Below are positions 38,219 through 52,208 of a stretch of 64,000 nucleotides of DNA, in pieces. The notes under the pieces are model-generated. The model saw only the letters and a list, made by a program, of their open reading frames with translations. It was not told where the DNA came from and made no database searches. The DNA comes from Geothrix oryzisoli (GTDB lineage Bacteria; Acidobacteriota; Holophagae; Holophagales; Holophagaceae), in contig NZ_JAKZLB010000005.1 in NCBI RefSeq assembly GCF_022808865.1, positions 1 through 64,000 on the forward strand, in the 5' to 3' direction. Positions within the stretch are counted from its first letter, which is position 1. Each line of letters begins with the position of its first letter. The translations under genes and the position numbers were made by a program.

Positions 38219-39379
38219 TTAGCCCCCCGCCACCGCCACCTGCCGCTTGCCTTCCCGCTTGGCGCGCAGGAGGGCCCGGTCGGCCTGTTCGATGAGGTGG
38301 CCGGCGCCATCGGCATGCTCGGGGAAGGCGGCGACGCCCGCGCTCAAGGAGATGGTCAGGCGGTCGCTCCCCAGGGTCACGGTCTGCCCGAGGATGACCT
38401 GGACCAGGCGTTCTGCGAGTTTCTGCGCGCCCCGGGCGAGGGTGCCCGGCATGAGAATGCAGAACTCGTCCCCCCCGTAGCGGTAGAGGCGGTCGTGGGC
38501 GCGGCAGAGGCGCTGGGCGGTCCGGGCCACGGCCTCCAGCACGATGCTGCCGGCGGGATGGCCGTACTGGCTGTTCACCTGCTTGAGGTCATCGACATCG
38601 AGGAAGACGAGGGCCACGGACTCGCCCTTGGCGGCGGCGATGCGCACGGCCTGGGGCAACTCCGCCTCCAGGCAGCGGCGGTTCTGGGCCACGGTCAGGT
38701 CGTCCTTGAAGGAGAGCGCCCGGCTCTCCTCCAGCCGCCAGGCATTGAGCAGCAGGGGTTCCACGTCCTCGAAGCCCTGGAGGAACCGCTCGGGCGGCTC
38801 CTGGGGATCCAGCAGCCGCAGGAGGCCCAGCTGCTCCGACGCTGCCAGCTGATGGGCCTCCCCCCGGCGCACCAGCTCCGCAGCCTCCTTGCGGGGCAGG
38901 GGGGCCTCGGGGAAGGAACCGTCTCCGGCCCTCTGGTAGAACAGGTTGTCCTTCCGGAGCCAGATGGCCCCGCCCCTCGCCCGGGCTTGGCGCACGGCGC
39001 GGTTCAGCACGAGCTTCAGGAGGTCATCCAGCGAGGCGAGGTGGAGCATCTGGCGCAGCCAGCCCTCGCTGCCGAGATCCCGCTGGCGCAGGTTCCGGAG
39101 GGCCTCCTGGGCCGCCTCGAGGGGGCGGTCCTGGAGGAGCACCCAGCCGGGTCTCAGCTCGAGCACCGCACTGACCTCCTCCGGATCCGCCCGCTGCACC
39201 CACCAGAGGATCTCCGAGCCCTCCGCGGGGATCAGCCCAGGATCGGGCCGCTCTGCCACCAGCACCAGCGAACCGGGCCCCGGCCCAGGCACCACCGGGT
39301 GGCCCCACCCTTCCAGAGCCTGGCGCAAAGCGTCACCCGCCCGGGAGGGATGCGGTTCCAGCCAGTGGAGGTGGTGCAT
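38219..39379 (-). CDS. GGDEF diguanylate cyclase
   Basis: A 386-residue cytoplasmic protein. The N-terminal 110 residues look like a receiver-type fold without clear phospho-acceptor chemistry, followed by a helical or GAF-like middle part (L-V-L-N-R-A-V-R-Q-A-R-A-R-G-G-A-I-W). The C-terminal GGDEF domain is intact: V-F-L-D-V-D-D-L-K-Q-V-N and Y-G-G-D-E-F, so it should make c-di-GMP. R-A-H-D five residues before GGDEF is the inhibitory I-site, implying product feedback. It is the second gene of a two-gene unit with the helical protein, divergent from pilB, whose product probably binds c-di-GMP. Confidence 0.9.
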   Translation of the reverse strand: MHHLHWLEPHPSRAGDALRQALEGWGHPVVPGPGPGSLVLVAERPDPGLIPAEGSEILWWVQRADPEEVSAVLELRPGWVLLQDRPLEAAQEALRNLRQRDLGSEGWLRQMLHLASLDDLLKLVLNRAVRQARARGGAIWLRKDNLFYQRAGDGSFPEAPLPRKEAAELVRRGEAHQLAASEQLGLLRLLDPQEPPERFLQGFEDVEPLLLNAWRLEESRALSFKDDLTVAQNRRCLEAELPQAVRIAAAKGESVALVFLDVDDLKQVNSQYGHPAGSIVLEAVARTAQRLCRAHDRLYRYGGDEFCILMPGTLARGAQKLAERLVQVILGQTVTLGSDRLTISLSAGVAAFPEHADGAGHLIEQADRALLRAKREGKRQVAVAGG

Positions 39380-39416: not shown

Positions 39417-41375
39417 TCAGCCCAGCGCGGCTTCCAGTCTCAAGGCAAGCTGGCCGAGGTGGGCCCCCAGCTGTTCCAGGATGGGCAGGGATCCTTCCCG
39501 CTGGCTGCGCTCGGCCCGGACCCAGCGCTTGAGCAGGATCACGGCCTGGGCATCGCGGACACCAAGCCGCTTGGCATTCTGGATCAGCTTGTGGGAGAGG
39601 CGGGTGCGCTCGGGGCCGGTGGGCCCCTCCTTCAGGTCGGCGATGAGCCTGAGCGCCTCCTGGGCCACTTCGAGGTCCTGGCGGATGAGGGGGACCCGGG
39701 CATTGATCCGGAGCAGGAACAGTTCCAGGAAGCGGAGCAGCTCGCCCAGCACGTCCATGCTGTCGCGCAGGGCCTGGTGGACCTCTTCGGGGGACTCCAG
39801 GAGCCGGCCCAGGTCCTGGATGAGCCGCTCGGCCTCCTCCCGGTCGGGCCGCCGCATCAAGGGGAATTCCGGGCTGCGGCGGAAGGTCAGCAGGTGGCGG
39901 TAGGCCTGGGCGAGGCCCAGGGCGAGCCTCGGCCAGTCCTGCAGTTCCAGGCTCAGCAGGAGCTGGGCATGGATGGGCGGGACCTGTTCCCAGAGCCGCT
40001 GGATGCGGAGCCGGAGCCGCTCGCCCTCCTCCATCAGGCTGGGGGATTCAGGGAACAGCCGCTGCTGGACGTCCGGCGAGAACAGGCCCACCAGCTCGCC
40101 CATGAGCTGTTTCTGGTGGTTGATGAGCAGGCCGCGCAGGTTGTCCAGGGTGTGGGCCAGCTGATCCGCATCCCCCCCCGCCAGGGCCTGCTGCAGGAGG
40201 CTGCGGAGCGTCGCCTGATCCTGGCGCAGACTCAGCACGGCCTGCCGCAGGTAGGCCCTGAGCCGCGGGATCTCGGCCCGATCCGGGTTCAGCAGCGCCG
40301 CCCGGCCCGGATCGTAGGCCCGTTCCACCACCCGTCCCAGTTCGGATTCGATGACCAGGAAGGTGGGCACGGTCGCATAGAGATCCTGGACCCCGGCGCC
40401 GGTGGCGGGCTCCATGGATTCCATGAGTCCCAGGAGGGAGATGTGGCTGGCCAGGGCCCGGGCCACCACGGAGAAGAGGGCCCGGTCCTCCCGGCGGAGA
40501 TCCTGGAGCAGCTTCCGCAGGTCGGCGGGCATGCGGTCCCGGAACAATTCGGCGTCCATGCGGGGCAGGACCCAGCCGAGGTGGTCCCAGAGCCAGCGCA
40601 GGCTTCCCCGCACCTGCTCCACCGCGGGCCAGTGGATCCCCCGGTCCAGGGGGCGCAGCAGGCTCAGACGCAGGTTGGACACCACATTCTGCAGCAGCAG
40701 CAGCGGCTCCACCCGCGCGTGGAACTTCGGGGGGATGCAGGCCTCCAGCTGCTCCGCCAGCCGCGCCAGGGATTCCTCCAGGCGGCCCCGGCCCTGGATG
40801 GCCCGGTTCACCACCTTCATCTGGGCGTTCAGCAGGGCCACGGCTTCCGGCCCGTTCTGGCAGGTCTGGAGGGCCGCCAGGATCTGGCGGAAGGGTTCGC
40901 GGTGGTCCTCCAGGAAGGCCGCCCACAGAGCCCGGAGGGCCCCGGCATCCTCTCCTGAAGGGGGGGCCATGGCCCGGAGGGAGGCGAGAAGATCCAGCAG
41001 GAGCCCCACCCAGGCGGGCTGCTCCAATTCCACCATCAGCTCCCGGTGGGCGGTCCCGGTCAGGTCGGCCAGCCGCCCCAGGCTGTGCTGGAGGACCTGG
41101 CCCATGGCCGCCCGGGCCTCGCCGAGCCGGCGGGGCGAGAACTGGTGCAGGAAGGCCAGGAAGAGGCCGAGGTTCCGTCGCAGGTTGGCCTGGGCAGAGG
41201 ACTCCCCGGCGGGGGCCGCCCCCCGCGAGGGCGCCTCCAGCAGCGGATCCAGGTCGCCCGCCCCTTCGCGGAGAATGTCCTCCAGCAGGGTGAGGTCCGT
41301 CCGGGATAGACCCTTCTCCCGGATCAACTGCCGGGCCAGCAGCAGGCGCTGAGGCGGGGTTCCTGGGACAGGCAT
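39417..41375 (-). CDS. Unrecognised large all-helical protein next to pilB
   Basis: A 652-residue cytoplasmic protein with no signal, membrane span or motif I recognise. It is almost entirely alpha-helical by composition, Leu/Arg/Glu/Gln-rich with many heptad-like stretches (S-L-A-R-L-A-E-Q-L-E-A, L-R-K-L-L-Q-D-L-R-R-E-D-R-A-L), and has an early Ala/Gly/Pro linker near residues 55-65. ATG 41375 is used because the upstream in-frame start is a TTG with no support; the ribosome-binding site is weak. The diguanylate cyclase follows 37 bases downstream and pilB starts 97 bases away on the other strand. A role in pilus or c-di-GMP control is inferred from position only. Confidence 0.7.
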   Translation of the reverse strand: MPVPGTPPQRLLLARQLIREKGLSRTDLTLLEDILREGAGDLDPLLEAPSRGAAPAGESSAQANLRRNLGLFLAFLHQFSPRRLGEARAAMGQVLQHSLGRLADLTGTAHRELMVELEQPAWVGLLLDLLASLRAMAPPSGEDAGALRALWAAFLEDHREPFRQILAALQTCQNGPEAVALLNAQMKVVNRAIQGRGRLEESLARLAEQLEACIPPKFHARVEPLLLLQNVVSNLRLSLLRPLDRGIHWPAVEQVRGSLRWLWDHLGWVLPRMDAELFRDRMPADLRKLLQDLRREDRALFSVVARALASHISLLGLMESMEPATGAGVQDLYATVPTFLVIESELGRVVERAYDPGRAALLNPDRAEIPRLRAYLRQAVLSLRQDQATLRSLLQQALAGGDADQLAHTLDNLRGLLINHQKQLMGELVGLFSPDVQQRLFPESPSLMEEGERLRLRIQRLWEQVPPIHAQLLLSLELQDWPRLALGLAQAYRHLLTFRRSPEFPLMRRPDREEAERLIQDLGRLLESPEEVHQALRDSMDVLGELLRFLELFLLRINARVPLIRQDLEVAQEALRLIADLKEGPTGPERTRLSHKLIQNAKRLGVRDAQAVILLKRWVRAERSQREGSLPILEQLGAHLGQLALRLEAALG

Positions 41376-41414
41376 GGCGAAAGCATACAATGGGCCGGCC
41401 GAGGGGATGAGGCC

Positions 41415-41446
41415 GGACGCAGGGATGCGTCCAAGGGTGATACCAT
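41415..41446 (+). promoter_or_regulatory. pilB promoter region with GGACGCA palindrome
   Basis: A perfect 7-bp inverted repeat GGACGCA-GGGA-TGCGTCC (41415-41432) sits where the -35 would be for an extended -10 element TGATACCAT (hexamer TACCAT, 41441-41446). The half-site core GACGCA recurs in the repeats upstream of pilA. Confidence 0.45.
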
Positions 41447-41472
41447 CGGCTCACCCCATCCGGAGGCAGCCA

Positions 41473-43320
<1,848 letters not shown>

Positions 43321-43331
43321 GAGTCCCCAGC

Positions 43332-44519
43332 ATGAGTGAAATCGGTTCCAACTACGTGGCTCCGCTGCAGCAGCTGCTCAAGACGATGGTGGAGTACGGG
43401 GGTACGGACCTTCACATCACCACGGATACCGCCCCGCAGATCCGCATCGATGGTCGCATGGTCCCCCTCAAGCTGCCGCCCATGGATGCGTCCCAGACGC
43501 GCTGGCTCTGCTACGGTGTCATGACGGACCAGCAGAAGCACCGTCTCGAGGAGGATCTCGAAGTGGACTTCTCCTTCGGCCTCCAGGGCGTGGCCCGCTT
43601 CCGCGCCAATGTCTTCAACCAGCGCGGCGCCACCGCGGGGGTCTTCCGCACCATCCCCGAGAACATCCGCAGCTTCGATCAGCTGGGCCTGCCGCCTTCG
43701 GTCCAGGCCCTCTGCGATAAGCCCCGCGGCCTGGTGCTGGTGACGGGCGTGACGGGCTCCGGCAAGTCCACGACTCTGGCCGCCATGGTGGACAAGATCA
43801 ATGCCGAGGAGCCGGTGCACATCCTCACCATCGAGGACCCGGTGGAATACGTCCACAAGCACAAGCGGGCCCTGGTGAACCAGCGGGAGATCCACGCGGA
43901 CACCCACAGCTTCAAGAAGGCCCTCCGCTCGGCCCTGCGCCAGGATCCCGATGTGGTGCTGGTGGGTGAAATGCGCGACCTGGAGACCATCGAGTCGGCC
44001 CTCACCATCGCCGAGACGGGCCACCTCACCTTCGCCACCCTGCACACCAACAGCACCGTGCAGACCATCAACCGCATCATCGACGTATTCCCCAGCCATC
44101 AGCAGGCCCAAGTCCGGGCCCAGCTCTCCCTGGTGCTCGAGGGCGTGATCTGCCAGAGCCTCATCCCCAAGGCCGGCGGCAAGGGCCGTGCCCTGGCCCT
44201 AGAGATCATGATCCCCAACTCCGCCATCCGGAACCTCATCCGCGAGGACAAGATCCACCAGATCTACGGGACCATGCAGTCCGGCCAGACCAAATACGGC
44301 ATGCAAACCTTCAACCAGAGCCTGTCCGACTTGGTGCTCCGGAAGGAGATCACCCAGGAGCAGGCCTTCGAGTATTCCTCCAACGCCGACGAGTTGCGGG
44401 AACTCATCAACCGGGGCGTGGGTGTCGGCTCCGCCGGCGGTCGGGGGGCCGCCGCACAGCCCGCCACCACCAGCAACCCCGCGCTCGGCGGGCGGAATCC
44501 CAACATCAAGTACACCTAA
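43332..44519 (+). CDS. pilT: Type IV pilus retraction ATPase PilT
   Basis: A 395-residue retraction motor. Walker A G-V-T-G-S-G-K-S at 139-146, Asp box (T-I-E-D-P-V-E-Y), Walker B (V-V-L-V-G-E-M-R-D), His box (T-G-H-L-T-F-A-T-L-H-T) and the A-I-R-N-L-I-R-E motif required for retraction are all present. The C-terminus has a Gly/Ala-rich tail. It begins 11 bases after pilB, with GGAGT before the ATG. Confidence 0.96.
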   Translation: MSEIGSNYVAPLQQLLKTMVEYGGTDLHITTDTAPQIRIDGRMVPLKLPPMDASQTRWLCYGVMTDQQKHRLEEDLEVDFSFGLQGVARFRANVFNQRGATAGVFRTIPENIRSFDQLGLPPSVQALCDKPRGLVLVTGVTGSGKSTTLAAMVDKINAEEPVHILTIEDPVEYVHKHKRALVNQREIHADTHSFKKALRSALRQDPDVVLVGEMRDLETIESALTIAETGHLTFATLHTNSTVQTINRIIDVFPSHQQAQVRAQLSLVLEGVICQSLIPKAGGKGRALALEIMIPNSAIRNLIREDKIHQIYGTMQSGQTKYGMQTFNQSLSDLVLRKEITQEQAFEYSSNADELRELINRGVGVGSAGGRGAAAQPATTSNPALGGRNPNIKYT

Positions 44520-44609: not shown

Positions 44610-45812
44610 ATGCCCGCATACGCATGGAAAGGCAAGAATCGAATGGGGGAGGCCCAGGAGGGTGTCCTGGTGTCCGAATCCAGGGATGCCGCCGCCGCCA
44701 CCCTGAAGCGCAACGGTATCGAGGTGACCTCCATCGGCGCCATGGCCGCCAAGGGCACCAAGTCCTTCGGTAGCGTGAAGGCCAAAGACCTGGCCATCTT
44801 CACCCGGCAGTTCAGCGTCATGATCGACGCCGGCCTGCCCCTGGTGCAGTGCCTGGAGATCCTCGGGGCCCAGCAGCAGGACAAGGGCTTCCAGAAGATC
44901 ATTGAGGCCGTGCGGGAGGATGTGGAGAAGGGCCTCACCCTCCAAGCGGCCCTCTCCAAACACCCCAAGGCCTTCAACGATCTCTACGTGAACATGGTGG
45001 GTGCCGGCGAAAGCGGCGGCATCCTGGATGTCATCCTCCAGCGGCTATCCACCTATATCGAGAAGGCCGTGAAGCTCACCGCCAAGGTAAAAGGCGCGAT
45101 GACCTATCCCGTGGCCGTCATCACCATCGCCATCGCCGTGGTGGTCATCATCATGGTGAAGGTGATCCCCGTCTTCTCCGCCATGTATGACGGTCTGGGC
45201 AGCAAGCTGCCCTTCCCGACCCTGATGTGCATGGCCCTGTCCAGCGCCCTCATCAACTACAGTTGGATCATCATCATCGCCGTGGTCCTCATCGTGATTG
45301 GCCTCCGCCAGTACTACAGGACGCCGGCTGGCCGCCTCCTGATCGATGGCTTCATGCTGAAGATCCCCATCATTGGTGACGTGCTCCGCAAGGTGGCTGT
45401 GGCCCGGTTCTGCCGGACCCTGGGTACCCTCATCAGTTCCGGCGTGCCCATCCTCGAAGGCATGGACATCACGGCCCGCACCGCTGGCAACATGGTCATC
45501 CAGAACGCAATCCTCAAGTCCAAGGATGCCGTGGAGCAGGGCCGCAACATCGCCACGCCCTTGGCCGAGACCAAGGTCTTCCCGCCCATGGTGGTGCAGA
45601 TGGTGGGTGTGGGCGAGGCCACCGGTGCCCTGGATGCCATGCTGTCCAAGGTGGCGGACTTCTACGAGGACGAGGTGGACAACGCCGTGGCGAACCTCAC
45701 CAGCCTCATGGAACCCATCATGATCGCTATCCTCGGCGGCATCATCGGCTTCATCGTCATTGCCATGTATCTGCCCATCTTCAACCTGGCCAATGTGTTC
45801 GGGAAGGATTGA
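44610..45812 (+). CDS. pilC: Type IV pilus inner-membrane platform protein PilC
   Basis: A 400-residue polytopic membrane protein on which PilB and PilT act. Two T2SSF domains (F-T-R-Q-F-S-V-M-I-D-A-G-L-P-L-V and F-C-R-T-L-G-T-L-I-S-S-G-V-P-I-L-E) each precede hydrophobic spans, and the E-x-x-G pattern G-E-A-T-G-A-L-D is conserved. Full length. It follows pilT by 90 bases, in which a short GACCC/GGGTC hairpin is seen. Confidence 0.95.
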   Translation: MPAYAWKGKNRMGEAQEGVLVSESRDAAAATLKRNGIEVTSIGAMAAKGTKSFGSVKAKDLAIFTRQFSVMIDAGLPLVQCLEILGAQQQDKGFQKIIEAVREDVEKGLTLQAALSKHPKAFNDLYVNMVGAGESGGILDVILQRLSTYIEKAVKLTAKVKGAMTYPVAVITIAIAVVVIIMVKVIPVFSAMYDGLGSKLPFPTLMCMALSSALINYSWIIIIAVVLIVIGLRQYYRTPAGRLLIDGFMLKIPIIGDVLRKVAVARFCRTLGTLISSGVPILEGMDITARTAGNMVIQNAILKSKDAVEQGRNIATPLAETKVFPPMVVQMVGVGEATGALDAMLSKVADFYEDEVDNAVANLTSLMEPIMIAILGGIIGFIVIAMYLPIFNLANVFGKD

Positions 45813-45868
45813 TCGCGGCGGTTCAGCACGCGCCTTGCATGTTTTTCCCGAAACCCCTGGAGGTCCCC

Positions 45869-46318
45869 ATGTCCGGCCTGCTATCCCGCTTGGCGCCCCG
45901 CCGTTCCGGCCATGCCCGGGGCTTTTCCCTTATCGAACTGCTGCTGGTGCTGGCCATCATCGGCGTCATCAGCGCCATCGCCATTCCCAGCTTCCTGGGC
46001 CAGCGGCGCCGGGCCCGGGTCATTGGAGATGCCATCTCCAACGCCAAGGTGCTGGCCATGGCTCTGGAAAACCGCAAGGCTGAGAATGGCCTTTACGGTA
46101 CGGCTGGCACCTATTCCTGGAAGGCCGACGGCACCCGCCCCAGCACCGATATCGCTCCGAGTTTCACCCCTCAGGGCAACAGCAAGATGAACTACACGGT
46201 GACGATCACCAACGCCGGGCTCGCTTACACCTTGACGGTGTTCGACCCCAGCCTCAGCGATACCACGGTGGCCTACCAGATGGACCAGTCTGGGAAGGAA
46301 CTGGCGCGGCTTCGTTAA
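45869..46318 (+). CDS. Type IV prepilin (pilin-like)
   Basis: A 149-residue prepilin. An 18-residue basic leader ends in Gly, followed by the mature start F-S-L-I-E-L-L-L-V-L-A-I-I-G with the invariant Glu5 for PilD cleavage and assembly. The globular part ends with a hydrophobic strand, and there is no cysteine pair. ATG 45869 has GGAGG six bases upstream, and the gene lies 56 bases after pilC, so it is probably in the same transcript. It may be a minor pilin or a second main pilin. Confidence 0.88.
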   Translation: MSGLLSRLAPRRSGHARGFSLIELLLVLAIIGVISAIAIPSFLGQRRRARVIGDAISNAKVLAMALENRKAENGLYGTAGTYSWKADGTRPSTDIAPSFTPQGNSKMNYTVTITNAGLAYTLTVFDPSLSDTTVAYQMDQSGKELARLR

Positions 46319-46329
46319 GCCGGTCCTCT

Positions 46330-48270
46330 TCAGTTTTCCGTTTCTTTTCGGAAGTAGTCGGCTTCGATGTCCTTCTTCACCTTCTGGAAGGCCTCTTCCG
46401 ATATTTCTGTGGACTCCACCCGGACATAGCCCTTGTAGACCAGCTTGTGGGCGCCCCCGGCCTTCAGGGGCTTGTACACTGTGAGGACATCCTTGGCGGC
46501 TTCGGCTACGGCCACGTCCTTGTTACGTTCAGAGGCGGGCTTCTCGTACTGCAGGGCCCATAGGCCGTCGTAGCCGATCGCCAGTCCTTTGATGACTCCC
46601 TCCGCAGAGAATTGCCGGTATTCCTTGGCGGGTTCCCGCAGAAACTGGCCATTGATGGTGTGGTACCGGATGAAGGCGCGGTGGCCCGCGGGCGGGTCCA
46701 CCGAGAAGGGAGCATCGTCGATCAGGTGGTGGTAGATGGTCCGCCGCAGATCCAGCAGGCTCACGGCTTCTTCTGAGCCTTGAGCAGGACCGGGAGTATG
46801 GGGGTTCCAGACCACCAGGGGGATCCGCCCCTCCCAGGGGTCAATGTCGAACCCATGCACTCCTTGGAGGCGGATGGTATCGGTGACGTGGTAGAACCGT
46901 TCGCCGTGGTCCGAGAACAAAATTTTGACCGCATCCTTGTAATTGGGATCCTGATCGAGGGTATTCCAGAGCTCCTTCCAGGCGGCGAGGATGTGCCGCA
47001 TTCGGATCGTGTAGGCCAGGAAGGGGTCAGTCCTGGGGTTCCAGGTGGCGGCGGCCTGGTCATCGAGCATGGCCCAGCTACCGAAGGGCCGAAAGCTGAG
47101 CGGGGAGACACGCCACCAACCCGGAATCTCCTTCAATTCCTCCCGGGTGAGAAAAATGGGGGAGTGGGCCAAGCAGGAGTGGTACATCACCCAACCACTG
47201 CCCCGCCCGTGGTCCAACGCCTGCCTTAGCCCTGCGTCCAGGGGGGTCCAGGGGGTGGTCGTGGGGAAGACCCGCAGCACGTTCAGCCAAACGGCGTACA
47301 GCGGCAGGTGAGGGGCCAAGTTGCTGTTGACGAAGTTCTCCCAACCTCTTGCGGGCATCTCCACCGCGTCGAAGGCCTCGGATCGACCCGCCAAGCCGAT
47401 GGTACCGCCATCGTCGATGAAGAAGCGGGGCTTCAGGCCCTTGGCTCGGGCGAGCAGGACGGTCTCGAAGGGAAACTTCCCTTCCATTTCCTCGATCGCA
47501 GGAAAGGCGTGACCGGTGGAATAGTGCTCAGGGTCCCCCCCCCAGAGGATGCCGTACAGCAGGCGAGTGGCCGGGATGCAGGTGTAGGCATTGGGGTAGC
47601 GGGTGCCCTGGAAGGTTGGGAGGCCGGCCTCGGTGGCCGTGTCATCCCGCAGGCCATCCAGACCTACCATCAGCACCTTGGCGGAGCCGGGTACCGCAGG
47701 AGGCTTGGGATGAACCCTGGCCAGCCAGATCGGGGTCTGGGCGAAGACCGTCCAGAGCAGAATCCATCCAGCTAAGGTCGTCAAGATTTGGGCCGGCCGA
47801 CTCGCCCGACGGATGAGCGCCCAGGCGCCCAGCGCCAGCAACAGGGCCAGCAGGGGGAAGAGCAGGCCGAAGGGGACCCGGTTGAGGCCAGGCACCAGCC
47901 ACAGGGCCGTGGGGACCTCCCACCAGAGCACCCCGTGGACCCAACCTAGGGCCAGGGCCGTGAGTCCCATGGCTTGCCATCCCGTCCAACGATGCCACCA
48001 GCCCCGGCCCAGGGCCCAGGGCAGGCCCGCCCAGAGCAAGGTGATGCACCAGAGCAGGATCCCAGTCACCAGGTAGAGTGGCAGCACCTCGGTCAGGGCC
48101 AGCTTCCAGGCGAAAGCCCGGACGAGAGGGGACTTCAGGCCGTCTGAGACGAAGGCTGACATACCCCCCTGGGGGGTCTTCATGTACAGCCAAGCCAGGC
48201 ACAGAAAGAATGCGAGGACGGAAAGGGCGGAAACCAGGACTCCTGACCAGCGCGTTATACGATTCGGCAT
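46330..48270 (-). CDS. Membrane sulfatase/phosphotransferase-like enzyme
   Basis: A 646-residue inner-membrane protein. Five hydrophobic spans fill the first 185 residues, followed by a periplasmic alkaline-phosphatase-superfamily domain: V-G-L-D-G-L-R-D-D (metal-binding aspartates), P-A-T-R (candidate nucleophile Thr in the usual place) and F-S-D-H-G-E-R-F (Asp-His metal pair). This layout, five spans plus hydrolase, is that of LtaS, EptA and pilin phosphotransferases as well as some sulfatases. It lies between two pilin genes. ATG 48270 is preferred. Whether it transfers a phospho-group or hydrolyses one cannot be told. Confidence 0.75.
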   Translation of the reverse strand: MPNRITRWSGVLVSALSVLAFFLCLAWLYMKTPQGGMSAFVSDGLKSPLVRAFAWKLALTEVLPLYLVTGILLWCITLLWAGLPWALGRGWWHRWTGWQAMGLTALALGWVHGVLWWEVPTALWLVPGLNRVPFGLLFPLLALLLALGAWALIRRASRPAQILTTLAGWILLWTVFAQTPIWLARVHPKPPAVPGSAKVLMVGLDGLRDDTATEAGLPTFQGTRYPNAYTCIPATRLLYGILWGGDPEHYSTGHAFPAIEEMEGKFPFETVLLARAKGLKPRFFIDDGGTIGLAGRSEAFDAVEMPARGWENFVNSNLAPHLPLYAVWLNVLRVFPTTTPWTPLDAGLRQALDHGRGSGWVMYHSCLAHSPIFLTREELKEIPGWWRVSPLSFRPFGSWAMLDDQAAATWNPRTDPFLAYTIRMRHILAAWKELWNTLDQDPNYKDAVKILFSDHGERFYHVTDTIRLQGVHGFDIDPWEGRIPLVVWNPHTPGPAQGSEEAVSLLDLRRTIYHHLIDDAPFSVDPPAGHRAFIRYHTINGQFLREPAKEYRQFSAEGVIKGLAIGYDGLWALQYEKPASERNKDVAVAEAAKDVLTVYKPLKAGGAHKLVYKGYVRVESTEISEEAFQKVKKDIEADYFRKETEN

Positions 48271-48325
48271 GAAAGGGCCCTCTCCAACCAGTCGATCTGT
48301 GTGCAATCAGGTGGGGTAGACCACC

Positions 48326-48382: not shown

Positions 48383-48913
48383 TTACTCGACAGCACTGAC
48401 CTTGGTGACCGTGCTCTGCCCGTTCACGACGCCATTGATCTTGGCGGCGCCGGCAATGAAGCCAGCACCAGCCGGAACGGCCGAGGCCGTCGAGGTGGCG
48501 GCCACGGAGGGCTGGGGGGGGCTCACGACAAAGGCCACATCACCAGGCTTCGAGACCTTCGCCGCCGCGGACAGAGCCGCCGTGGAGGCGGTGCGGTCCG
48601 TGCCAGCCGTGACGCAAGTGGCGGGGAAGGCGGGGAGGGCGGGATTCCAGGGATTGTAATCCTTGCCGGAGGTCTGAGTGAGATAGGTCTGCAGCATGCC
48701 GGGAATCAGGCTGGCGGAGGTTCCGCTCTCCTTCAGGCGATCATACTGGCCGACCAGATCGCCCACGCGACCGTCCATGTTGGAGATGGTGGCCTTGTCA
48801 CGGGCCCGGGCGCGCTGACCCAGCAGGGCCGGGATGGCGATGGCGCTGATGATGCCGATGATCGCGAGGACCAGCAGCAACTCGATGAGGGTGAAGCCGG
48901 ACTGCTTCTTCAT
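48383..48913 (-). CDS. pilA: Type IV major pilin
   Basis: A 176-residue pilin. A very short leader M-K-K-Q-S-G precedes mature F-T-L-I-E-L-L-L-V-L-A-I-I-G with Glu5, then a long N-terminal helix and a Thr/Ala/Ser-rich globular part with few aromatics. It is not of the short, aromatic-rich kind proposed for conductive pili. AAGGAGA seven bases before the ATG, a strong terminator and a sigma-54-type promoter suggest high, regulated expression. It is on the opposite strand to pilBTC. Confidence 0.9.
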   Translation of the reverse strand: MKKQSGFTLIELLLVLAIIGIISAIAIPALLGQRARARDKATISNMDGRVGDLVGQYDRLKESGTSASLIPGMLQTYLTQTSGKDYNPWNPALPAFPATCVTAGTDRTASTAALSAAAKVSKPGDVAFVVSPPQPSVAATSTASAVPAGAGFIAGAAKINGVVNGQSTVTKVSAVE

Positions 48914-49075: not shown

Positions 49076-51037
49076 TCAGGGCCGGAATCGGGATCGGTCC
49101 AGCAATAAGGCTGTCATCAATGCTCCCAGGAGCACGCCAAGAACCCAGACCATGCCGGGCCCTTCTGGCGTGCCTTCCCAGCGACCGTCCGGCAGGCGCT
49201 GCCAATCCACTGCCCTGGGATTATTGAGGGATGGCACCTGGTCCGAGGGGGAGGCCGTCTGTAACCTGCCATCGGGCTTGTGTTCCAAGGGCGTCATCCG
49301 GCCCTGCACCCCTGCCCATGGGTAGGTGAAGGGCATGGCCTCCGGCATTCGGGCGACATAGGTTCTCCGCCCAAGGACATCCACAAAACAGCTGACATTC
49401 CCGAGGGGGGCCAGCACCATCGGGTCCGCGGCCACCAGAGCCTGAACGCCAGCCTGCCGGAGACGATCGATCGATTCCTGACGTTTGGCCGCAAACCCTT
49501 CCACGGGAATGGCCCCCCGCCAGGGGACCGTCAGGCCATAGTGGGCCCGGCTCGCCACGGCAGGCTCCATCGGCTCGTAGAGCGAGAGGTTCCCCTGGTC
49601 ATAAAGTAATGGCGCATTGCCAATGAGGCCAAGCATGGGCACGGGGAGGGGCTGCAGCATGTTGAAGGCCCCGATCATCACCAAGCGGGATCCGGGGGGA
49701 ACCTCAGCCTTTTCCAAGCACCGGCGGGACTCCGATAGAACCACCTGGGCACCGAGGGCATGCGTGCCCTGGAGGCTGGGAAGCAGATCGAAGGCGAGGC
49801 CTCTGAGGCAAACCAAGGTGCCCAGGACGCAAAGGGTTCCCAGGATGCCTTGGCGCCAATAAGGCTTGAGCCCCCTAAACCCCTCTTCGCGCAGGAGCGA
49901 CAGGAGGCTCAGCGTTCCAAAGAAGATGCTCAGCTTCCAGGTCCACCGGAAACCCGCGAAGGGTCCGACAGCCAGGAACCGAAGCCATGGGAAAGTCGCG
50001 ATGCTGAGCAGAGCGCCGAAGAACAGGAAGAACACGACGGGGCGGAAGTTTCGCCTCTTTGAAGCCAGGCACACCACAAGGACGAGGCTGGGGGCGAAGA
50101 ACATGCCGATGCCCGTCCAACTGGCCCGGGCCCAGACCTGGAACCCTCCGCTGGGGATCAGGTTTCCGACCAAGACTCCATGCAGCCAAGTCCCCAGGGT
50201 TTGCGCGTGCATCAGGATGAATTTCGGGTTGTCCCGGCTCAGCATCCAATCGGGATTGGCCCCAGTGGAAACCCCCTTCAGATAAAGCAGAGGCGCCACC
50301 GCGGGAATCTGGGCCAAGGCCAATCGGACCATCCCCAGCCGCGATGATGCCCACTTCTCGTAGGACAAGGTCCATAGGGCGAGCAGAGACACCCCGAACA
50401 CGTACATGCTTGGATGAGCCGATAGGAAGAAGGCCAGGCTGGCACCGACCATGGGCAGGTTCGGGCGCCAGGATTGGATTTCCAGTTCGGAGTCTCGCCA
50501 GGAGAGGAGGGCCATGGCCAGGAACCAGGGGTGGCATGCCAGATAGTTGTGCCAGTTGGCCCCAAGGATGAAGGGGCCGGGGAGGGCCATGGTGGCAAGG
50601 CTGGCCAGCAGGCGCTCACGCCATTCGAACCGAGTGGGAAGCAGGCGCCATGAGAAGGCCCCGGCCAGAACCAGATGCAGCCAGGCGCTGGTCTCCAGGA
50701 TGGCAAGAGGATGACCGATCATTCGGGCCAGCAGGTTCGCCAAGTGGTATGCCGGGTAAAGCAGACCGACCTGCCCGCTCTCCCAGGGAGACCAGCCCGC
50801 GCCGAGATCCCAAACCATGCGGAGCAGCTGGCCGTGGTCCAACAGGCAGTCCGTGTGTGCCTTGATCAGCGGGCCATAGTAAGGGAGGTTGTCCGCGGTC
50901 GTTGTGAAGGGGTAGGGGCGGACAGCTTGGGCCAAGCCCACGAGCAATCCGGCGAACCCGGTGATGGCCAGGAAGACACCGGGGGAGGACAGGGCGAATG
51001 CTTGTAGTTTCTCAACCCAAGCCTTGCGTGGGCCCAT
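49076..51037 (-). CDS. Large polytopic membrane protein, GT-C/YfhO-like
   Basis: A 653-residue membrane protein with about 11-12 predicted spans in residues 1-470 and a C-terminal extracytoplasmic domain before a final span. The D-N-L-P-Y-Y-G-P segment after the first span, with charged residues in the first outer loop, resembles GT-C glycosyltransferases and YfhO-type proteins, which use lipid-linked sugars. I do not recognise it firmly. ATG 51037 was chosen because upstream in-frame sequence looks non-coding. It precedes pilA on the same strand and is divergent from the GT2 gene, with which it may work. Confidence 0.6.
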   Translation of the reverse strand: MGPRKAWVEKLQAFALSSPGVFLAITGFAGLLVGLAQAVRPYPFTTTADNLPYYGPLIKAHTDCLLDHGQLLRMVWDLGAGWSPWESGQVGLLYPAYHLANLLARMIGHPLAILETSAWLHLVLAGAFSWRLLPTRFEWRERLLASLATMALPGPFILGANWHNYLACHPWFLAMALLSWRDSELEIQSWRPNLPMVGASLAFFLSAHPSMYVFGVSLLALWTLSYEKWASSRLGMVRLALAQIPAVAPLLYLKGVSTGANPDWMLSRDNPKFILMHAQTLGTWLHGVLVGNLIPSGGFQVWARASWTGIGMFFAPSLVLVVCLASKRRNFRPVVFFLFFGALLSIATFPWLRFLAVGPFAGFRWTWKLSIFFGTLSLLSLLREEGFRGLKPYWRQGILGTLCVLGTLVCLRGLAFDLLPSLQGTHALGAQVVLSESRRCLEKAEVPPGSRLVMIGAFNMLQPLPVPMLGLIGNAPLLYDQGNLSLYEPMEPAVASRAHYGLTVPWRGAIPVEGFAAKRQESIDRLRQAGVQALVAADPMVLAPLGNVSCFVDVLGRRTYVARMPEAMPFTYPWAGVQGRMTPLEHKPDGRLQTASPSDQVPSLNNPRAVDWQRLPDGRWEGTPEGPGMVWVLGVLLGALMTALLLDRSRFRP

Positions 51038-51230
51038 GGGCACCCCCGAGATGATGTTCCGGCGGAAATTACGGATGGATTCGACATGCCTGGGTCTGGT
51101 CTTCGACAGTGTCAGGATAGCGAATGCAGAGCTCTGGATGGCTTGGGCCGTTCGAAAATGGCAAGAACGCTGCATGCTACTCTCGGGAACCCCCTCTCCT
51201 AGGATCTCCCACACAAGGATCTGGTTCCCG

Positions 51231-52208
51231 ATGAGCGATACGTTCTTCGACTTGGTGCCGCGGCCCCTTCCCCCGCTCCTCTCGCTGGTCATTCCGATTT
51301 TCAACGAGGAAGAGGTTTTACCGCTCCTGATACCCCGGCTCAGGGAGATCCTCAACACCCTCTCCTGTCCTTCGGAGGTGATCCTGGTCGATGACGGCAG
51401 CAGCGATAGGAGCATTCAGATTCTGCTCAAGGAATCAGAATCCGACTCGCGCCTGAAGGTACTCGCGCTCGCCCGGAATTTTGGGCACCAATTGGCAGCA
51501 ACGGCAGGGTTGGACTTCTCGCGGGGAGAAGCTGTCATCTTGATGGATGCTGACCTCCAGGATCCGCCCGAGCTTATCAGCGCCATGCTCGAAAAATACT
51601 GCCAGGGCTTCGATGTGGTTTATGCGAAGCGGACCGCCCGCGAAGGCGAGACCTGGTTCAAGAAGGCCACCGCATGGGCGTTCTACAGAATCATGCGCCG
51701 ACTGATTCACAAAGACTTGCCAGTTGATGTGGGAGACTACCGGCTCATGAGCCGCCCCTGCCTTGATGCCCTGCAATCCATGCGTGAAACGCATCGATTT
51801 CTCCGCGGTATGGTGGCCTGGATCGGTTTCCCACAGACCTCCGTCGAATTCATACGGCCCCGCAGAGCGGCCGGGGAAACCAAGTACCCATTGAGCAAGA
51901 TGCTCCTGTTCGCTTGGAATGCGGCGCTCTCCTTCTCTCCCTTGCCCCTCAGGCTGATCTTCGGAGCGGGCATGACTCTGGCCATTGGGAGTTTCAGCTA
52001 CGGCCTGTTCGCCATGGGGGCTACCTTCTGGGGTCTCGACGTGGTTCGCGGGTGGGCTTCCAGCATTGCGGTCACCTGCTTTATTGGAGGAACCATCTTG
52101 GTGAGCATCGGGTTGCTCGGTGAATATGTGGCCAAGATTTATGAGCAGGTCAAGGAACGCCCTCTGTATGTCGTCGCAAGAACCAAGAATTTCCCCCCGA
52201 AGGCATGA
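51231..52208 (+). CDS. GT2 glycosyltransferase, GtrB/DPM1-type
   Basis: A 325-residue membrane-bound glycosyltransferase that places a sugar on undecaprenyl phosphate. Seen: S-L-V-I-P-I-F-N-E-E, L-V-D-D-G-S-S-D (nucleotide-binding Asp), R-N-F-G-H-Q-L-A-A-T-A-G-L-D, M-D-A-D-L-Q-D-P-P-E (D-x-D metal site) and D-Y-R-L-M-S-R; two C-terminal membrane spans follow (about 237-260 and 270-295). The ribosome-binding site AAGGAT is weak. It heads a group with a methyltransferase and an epimerase. Base composition from here to about 53.97 kb is visibly less GC-rich than in the neighbours. Confidence 0.9.
   Translation: MSDTFFDLVPRPLPPLLSLVIPIFNEEEVLPLLIPRLREILNTLSCPSEVILVDDGSSDRSIQILLKESESDSRLKVLALARNFGHQLAATAGLDFSRGEAVILMDADLQDPPELISAMLEKYCQGFDVVYAKRTAREGETWFKKATAWAFYRIMRRLIHKDLPVDVGDYRLMSRPCLDALQSMRETHRFLRGMVAWIGFPQTSVEFIRPRRAAGETKYPLSKMLLFAWNAALSFSPLPLRLIFGAGMTLAIGSFSYGLFAMGATFWGLDVVRGWASSIAVTCFIGGTILVSIGLLGEYVAKIYEQVKERPLYVVARTKNFPPKA

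Follow-up and report, generated by a model that had tools for sequence, protein, structure and literature searches.

A Holophagaceae-specific helical protein encoded between a diguanylate cyclase gene and pilB, a possible docking protein for pilus signalling

The genes discussed in this work lie in a stretch of 64,000 nucleotides from Geothrix oryzisoli (contig NZ_JAKZLB010000005.1, positions 1 to 64,000), hereafter referred to as the window. A reading frame of 652 codons plus a stop, located on the minus strand at 39417..41375, encodes the helical protein P0001 (652 aa), hereafter ORP. The gene of a diguanylate cyclase, P0002 (386 aa; 38219..39379, minus strand; Pfam GGDEF, 6.3e-36), begins 37 bp downstream of ORP on the same strand, and because of this close and codirectional arrangement we infer that the two genes form an operon. 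On the other side of ORP, and on the plus strand, there are pilB (41473..43320; T2SSE 3e-140, MshEN 8.7e-23), pilT (43332..44519; T2SSE match) and pilC (44610..45812; named by reading the sequence), the last two being found in the same order in relatives. The longest open reading frame of pilB would start from the ATG at 41374 and overlap ORP by 2 bp; homologous PilB proteins begin near MVSKLG, which points to the GTG at 41473, and the sequence GGAGG is placed 6 bp before this codon. Judging from the homologs, the ATG start is an over-call.

With the corrected pilB start, the divergent region between ORP and pilB spans 97 bp (41376..41472), and the alignment of 16 loci revealed two conserved blocks within it. 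The first one, TATGCT on the minus strand, ends 6 bp before the ORP ATG, while the second one, TGnTACCAT (41438-41446), precedes pilB, with a single locus of the 16 departing within the block. The two blocks might represent the -10 elements of two divergent promoters, in which case the ORP message would be nearly leaderless. The scan for a sigma-70 consensus with -35 boxes returned no site in the divergent region, and no Rfam family reached the gathering score between 36900 and 52300. Further along the window, two genes for pilin-like proteins that carry N-terminal methylation motifs (45809-46318, plus strand; 48383-48913, minus strand) flank a minus-strand gene (46330-48306) whose product has a weak sulfatase match (24.3 bits versus a cut-off of 25). 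They are followed by a gene for a hydrophobic protein of 779 aa with no Pfam match at E <= 1e-4 (49076-51415, minus strand), and a second PilB-like ATPase gene is located just past the window (G000:C5:67909-69078).

The ORP frame appears to be under purifying selection, since, when its codons are compared with those of four equally long Geothrix orthologs, dN (0.035-0.148) is far below dS (0.42-0.63), which corresponds to a dN/dS of about 0.08-0.24. No stop codon falls inside the matches in the 32 of 60 genomes (the window's genome counted) having one at E <= 0.001; two orthologs, L096 and L098, are frame-split, and both belong to draft metagenome assemblies. The nearest named relative is a Geothrix campi protein, 93% identical. 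The scan of the window protein against Pfam and NCBIfam gave no significant match, the search of PDB sequences gave nothing significant (best E 0.17 with phmmer and 0.1 with a profile search), and no recognised family was retrieved when 35 members of the ORP family were scanned against Pfam. The sole weak Pfam match present in more than four of these 35 members was Mce4_CUP1 (13 members, best 6.6e-4); it covers part of one long helix, it scores 13.4 bits in the window ORP versus a cut-off of 32.6, and it was judged to be helix noise. The existence of a receiver domain within ORP itself was also rejected (profile comparison probability 0.3%). No transmembrane segment is evident from hydropathy (the maximum 19-residue Kyte-Doolittle mean is 1.66), and no internal repeats were detected by self profile comparison. 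A literature search limited to co-occurring terms found no paper joining Geothrix, type IV pili and diguanylate cyclase, and none pairing Holophagaceae with pilB.

These data agree with the preliminary description of this DNA, according to which ORP is an all-helical protein without a recognised family; indeed, no confident match to a known unrelated family emerged, and the AlphaFold model (mean pLDDT 80.8, pTM 0.75) is made up of helices only, organized in bundles in series. The structural comparison proposed in the same description yielded no confident relative, since Foldseek retrieved nothing at E <= 0.001 from the PDB and viral models. The top row was a vinculin homolog (E 0.027, probability 0.28), and vinculin, talin and alpha-catenin recur lower in the list. 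The matches obtained with VIA were helical bundles with Z <= 11.9, which is under the background of about 13 for bundles, and covered mainly residues 333-651; vinculin had a Z of 11.2 (300 aligned residues, rmsd 14.7). Vinculin, alpha-catenin and talin resemble ORP only in the general layout, that is bundles in series, with no confident match and with scores below the chance level for helical bundles.

The organization of the locus was then compared using 56 ORP loci from named records, retrieved by a peptide-pattern scan of about 85,000 species that reaches close relatives only. In 51 of them, referred to as pil-type, an ortholog of the cyclase gene lies directly after ORP on the same strand, and in 48 of these 51 pilB is divergent and upstream of ORP; the contigs of the other three (L073, L083, and L098) end first. 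No exception to the orientation of the pilB, ORP and cyclase genes was found among the pil-type loci, and the same order also holds, by coordinates, in genomes of nine genera. Only 1-159 bp separate ORP from the cyclase gene in those pil-type loci for which the gap was measured (48 of 51, with starts chosen by script). Both neighbours reported for ORP in the preliminary description, the cyclase beside it and pilB back-to-back with it, are thus found well beyond the window, and the gene does not occur mostly away from pil genes, an outcome that would have spoken against that description. Two of the 51 loci, L083 and L088, come from one metagenome assembly (JAFDVN), which carries two pil-type ORP copies on separate contigs, perhaps because two strains were binned together.

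It is possible to imagine that ORP has some unrelated function in the cytoplasm and is just a conserved neighbour, its synteny reflecting nothing but the slow rearrangement of genomes in the Holophagaceae. This idea fits the finding that dnaJ lies near 37 and dnaK near 33 of the 51 pil-type loci (some contigs being too short to judge). However, in the DNA examined, the order of the three genes persists without dnaJ/dnaK (e.g., in L084, L085, L118, and L119), and a sister gene, described below, is also embedded in a signalling cluster, so that we regard an unrelated role as improbable.

As for the distribution of ORP, a profile built from 33 members detected it in 62 of 77 Holophagaceae genomes and in none of 16 other genomes of the same class; a profile built from 35 members detected it in 34 of 396 genomes of the phylum, all 34 belonging to the Holophagaceae. 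Two ORP loci carry the record titles Deltaproteobacteria and Bacillota; these titles are probably misassignments, since both proteins fall among those of Holophagaceae in the phylogenetic tree. A PilB ortholog is harboured by 66 of the 77 family genomes (68 exceeded the threshold; G097 and G099, which possess only a paralog with about 45% identity, were left out), and the phylogenetic profile suggested in the preliminary description places ORP in 61 of these 66. Among the five PilB genomes without ORP, G021 has a contig that begins inside pilB, whereas G030, G035, G096 and G098 hold, as far as gene content is concerned, a full-length pilB ortholog without ORP. In G030 and G035 ORP is gone and the cyclase gene is directly back-to-back with pilB; in G096 and G098, which belong to one genus, neither ORP nor an ortholog of the cyclase gene is found beside pilB. 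The fragmented genome G091 harbours pieces of ORP and no PilB match. Outside the Holophagaceae, a PilB relative was present in all 12 genomes tested, and ORP in none of them.

The presence of ORP does not follow that of the pilus motor, as would be expected for a core pilus component. Since four Holophagaceae genomes keep pilB without ORP, and two of them still keep the cyclase gene, ORP is a Holophagaceae-specific accessory. The proposal that it is the best candidate for an undescribed component in the window is therefore to be retained only in part: the protein is unclassified and encoded at pil genes, but it is a lineage-specific accessory and not a core component. In the two loci from the window's genus, L112 (8079-10605, from G035) and L113 (from G030), ORP is missing exactly between the cyclase gene and pilB, and L112 has an additional ORF of 134 aa between pilB and pilT. 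At the L115 locus of G098, an ORF of 564 aa (L115:5497-7191), whose GGDEF part is 34% identical, is located some 0.5 kb upstream of pilB, in the same orientation; it possibly codes for another cyclase at the same site.

Five Geothrix genomes harbour a second copy of ORP (che-type), 47-48% identical, in a different genetic context. In all five loci this sister gene precedes, on the same strand, a gene coding for CheY (PF00072, 8e-27 in L093), which is followed by a coiled-coil/GAF-like ORF and by cheD, cheA, a gene for an MCP, cheW and cheR; cheB was recognised by eye beyond cheR in L031. No pil gene was found at any of the five. The distance between the sister gene and cheY is 215-270 bp and, in L093, the intervening DNA contains a promoter-like site, with no terminator-like one detected; because of this gap and of the promoter-like site, the co-transcription of the two genes is not assured. 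The ORF between cheY and cheD (L093:12597-13370, L090:3552-4330) codes for a coiled-coil protein with a weak GAF-like part. In a set of 14 genomes tested, a close CheA (at least 80%) was found only in G007 and G063, the two carriers of the sister gene; nine of the remaining 12 have more distant CheA relatives only, and three, including the window's genome, have none at E <= 1e-60.

The phylogenetic tree of 35 ORP proteins (with a midpoint root, for drawing only) groups the five che-type proteins in a separate clade, outside the 30 pil-type proteins (support 100/100; branch 0.85). For this reason the split between the two types looks old, and a recent duplication as the origin of the sister gene is not favoured. 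Across the aligned sequences (30 pil-type and five che-type), 115 of the 652 ORP positions are invariant; the densest blocks of 25 residues are 601-625 (12 invariant positions), 251-275 (11) and 551-575 (9), and residues 498-514 also form a cluster of residues invariant in both sister types. These patches, conserved in both the pil-type and the che-type proteins, are the strongest candidates for the site of a shared binding function.

The presence of a CheY gene next to the sister gene, the helical bundles of the model and a stretch near residue 595 (SHKLIQNAKRLGVRD) that is Hpt-like by eye might also be explained by assuming that ORP consists of degenerate histidine phosphotransfer (Hpt) domains of the ChpA/FimL type, arranged in an array and passing or receiving phosphate. 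Nevertheless, the hhalign comparison with 30 Hpt domains gave a probability of 0.3% (E 0.18) without aligning the stretch at residue 595, and no PF01627 match was obtained in 35 ORP members at E <= 2. Moreover, the Hpt phospho-site motif, which we take to be HxLKG (a motif also seen in the compared Hpt set), is not preserved: SHKLIQ of the window protein is without the K and the G of the motif, and the H is replaced in the che-type sisters (RLAKILIQ, RLTKILIQ). With neither the profile similarity nor the phospho-site found, ORP was rejected as an Hpt protein, and a role in phosphotransfer seems very improbable to us.

Regarding the protein encoded by the gene downstream of ORP, both the sequence motif and the domain fold of a diguanylate cyclase are found in the GGDEF domain of P0002 (residues 225-379; 38243..38707, minus strand), as revealed by Pfam (PF00990, 6.3e-36), by the alignment and by the Foldseek probability of 1.00 to GGDEF structures. 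The GGDEF motif (residues 302-306) and the RxxD inhibitory site (293-296) are identical in all 37 aligned cyclases, i.e., those of the window and L112 and 35 from the 48 loci whose cyclase is full-length. Motifs of this kind are established as determinants of c-di-GMP synthesis and of its product inhibition, respectively, and, given their invariance, P0002 should make c-di-GMP and be inhibited by its product. The middle part of the protein (residues 104-190; 38810..39070, minus strand) has GAF_2 and GAF matches, each in 15 of the 37 orthologs at E <= 1 (best 7.8e-5 and 0.0083), and VIA aligned the cyclase model from residue 111 with Dcsbis and from residue 101 with a bacteriophytochrome cyclase, both of which presumably hold GAF domains. 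On the basis of sequence and model, the region from about 101 to 220 is GAF-like.

The N-terminal part (residues 1-98; 39086..39379, minus strand) is likely a degenerate receiver, although the evidence from sequence is weak. In the model, its strands and helices follow a receiver-like order, and hhalign against 30 receiver domains from the same genome gave a probability of 30% (E 5e-4), compared with 0.1-0.3% for five control pairs and 10.8% when the query was the entire cyclase. VIA aligned the model with PleD, WspR and DgcR, which we take to be receiver-GGDEF cyclases; the alignments start at residue 1 or 2 of the model and cover about 255 residues with an rmsd of 10.8-19, the score being carried mainly by the GGDEF domain. 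P0002 differs from these three enzymes in the GAF-like domain lying in between, in the degenerate nature of its receiver-like part and in the looseness of the end-to-end alignment. None of the 37 cyclase orthologs has a Pfam receiver match, and no phospho-acceptor aspartate is recognisable in the N-terminal part. With a pTM of only 0.45, the cyclase model leaves the arrangement of the domains uncertain. In G035, which is devoid of ORP, conservation of the receiver-like part persists (L112 row of the alignment). In their layout, the receiver-like and GAF-like parts of the cyclase resemble the chemosensory locus, in which CheY and GAF are encoded by separate genes; the likeness of the two loci concerns the layout only, since no relation is detectable between the two GAF-like parts (0.3%). 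The occurrence of receiver-type neighbours in both settings suggests that members of the ORP family might act as docking proteins for signalling partners with receiver-like features.

On the pilus side, the N-terminal region of the window PilB matches MshEN (8.7e-23 at residues 56-143; query from 41476, one codon after the GTG) and contains two near-canonical MshEN-type c-di-GMP-binding motifs of 24 residues (41482..41640, plus strand). With respect to the two-copy RLGxx...Q motif described in PMC5013675, both copies have K for R, and the first one has Q for G at the turn. These substitutions are typical of the 51 PilB sequences counted, some of which are partial: K stands in place of R in 47 of 51 first motifs and in 49 of 50 second motifs, and 46 of 51 sequences have Q instead of G at the turn of the first motif. 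The closing Q is retained in nearly every sequence (50 of 51 for the first motif, 50 of 50 for the second). The binding of c-di-GMP by PilB is plausible, though uncertain.

The 20 of the 51 loci in which all seven genes are whole were used for a distance test, in which distances were regressed on DnaK and DnaJ. The partial correlation was 0.65 between ORP and the cyclase (0 of 2000 permutations), 0.58 between ORP and pilT, 0.42 between ORP and pilB, and 0.31 between ORP and pilC; it was 0.71 between the cyclase and pilB and 0.12 between pilB and pilT. These correlations fit a common pathway, but the distance test is unable to tell it apart from common linkage.

Two other interpretations have to be weighed at this point. 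The first one is that ORP regulates the cyclase alone, by allostery, the c-di-GMP being for general use and the location beside pilB being due to history. Indeed, the strongest partial correlation of ORP is that with the cyclase, and the pair occupies the same position in all 48 judgeable loci, so that the linkage to pilB could be simply inherited. This interpretation accounts less well for the fact that the cyclase itself correlates best with pilB, for the adjacency to pilB in nine genera, and for the c-di-GMP motifs of PilB; we consider it unlikely, while still worth keeping in mind. According to the second one, ORP would act directly on PilB or PilT as a regulator of extension/retraction, and the cyclase would be a separate, co-regulated input. 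The divergent region common to ORP and pilB and the correlations of ORP with pilT and pilB are in agreement with this idea; on the other hand, the sister gene lies beside CheY and the chemosensory cluster, with no pil gene found in five of five loci, and the gene content of G030, G035, G096 and G098 shows that pilB is kept without ORP. A direct action on the motor therefore receives little credence from us.

Our preferred interpretation, to which we assign a probability of roughly 0.4, is that ORP is a docking protein tying the signals of the cyclase to the pilus machine, the sister protein doing likewise for CheY. ORP would be a cytoplasmic docking protein made up of several helical bundles and able to bind signalling proteins of the receiver-like kind; the partner at the pil locus would be the neighbouring cyclase, contacted via the degenerate receiver-like and/or the GAF-like N-terminal part. 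The complex might place or switch the cyclase near the pilus motor, where the locally made c-di-GMP would be read by the N-terminal motifs of PilB and would set pilus extension, while the sister protein would have an equivalent role for a phosphorylatable CheY. In this scheme we infer the physical contacts, the direction of control and the location in the cell. The idea of a scaffold joining the cyclase and the pilus machine, which had already been put forward in the preliminary description, is plausible and is strengthened by the sister gene. A broader proposal, that the ORP family represents a new class of receiver-docking scaffolds serving two circuits (cyclase-PilB and CheY-chemosensory array) in one bacterial family, is more tentative and, in our opinion, somewhat doubtful.

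Some of the data do not fit the docking interpretation easily. The cyclase need not have ORP, since G030 and G035 keep both the cyclase gene and pilB without it; the sequence evidence for a receiver-like part is weak (30%, no Pfam match); 215-270 bp separate the sister gene from cheY, with a promoter-like site between them (L093); the first c-di-GMP motif of most PilB sequences departs from the published one at its turn residue; and, in the 20 of 51 loci of the distance test, the ORP distances correlate with those of pilT, pilB and pilC too, and not with the cyclase alone. If the docking interpretation is true, it would provide the first function for an unclassified protein family. The issue bears on local versus global c-di-GMP signalling, as a cyclase, its probable partner and a motor that probably reads c-di-GMP are genetic neighbours in dozens of species. 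The two natural losses of ORP alone, together with the gene neighbourhood, make local pilus signalling testable in cultured Geothrix.

The docking interpretation can be compared with two systems of Pseudomonas. According to PMC10519157, FimL interacts with FimV and with the CheY-like PilG, and it helps to recruit PilG to the pole (see also PMC12632253). As far as these sources go, FimL of Pseudomonas aeruginosa would be similar to the proposed ORP in tethering a receiver protein that acts on type IV pilus extension. The FimL N-terminus is reported to be homologous to ChpA (PMC10519157), and ORP was compared with FimL by description only; in contrast to the FimL system, the receiver-like element proposed as the partner of ORP forms part of a diguanylate cyclase. 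The second system is that of the cyclase DgcP, which, according to PMC7033161, depends on the polar hub FimV, with a local c-di-GMP pool being proposed. The DgcP-FimV pair resembles the proposed ORP pair in that the position and the regulation of a cyclase are entrusted to a hub that is non-catalytic and associated with the pilus; FimV, however, is a peptidoglycan-binding polar protein, whereas ORP belongs to no Pfam family and has no transmembrane segment that we could see. Thus, on the basis of what these sources describe, FimL and DgcP-FimV indicate that both halves of the docking scheme exist elsewhere.
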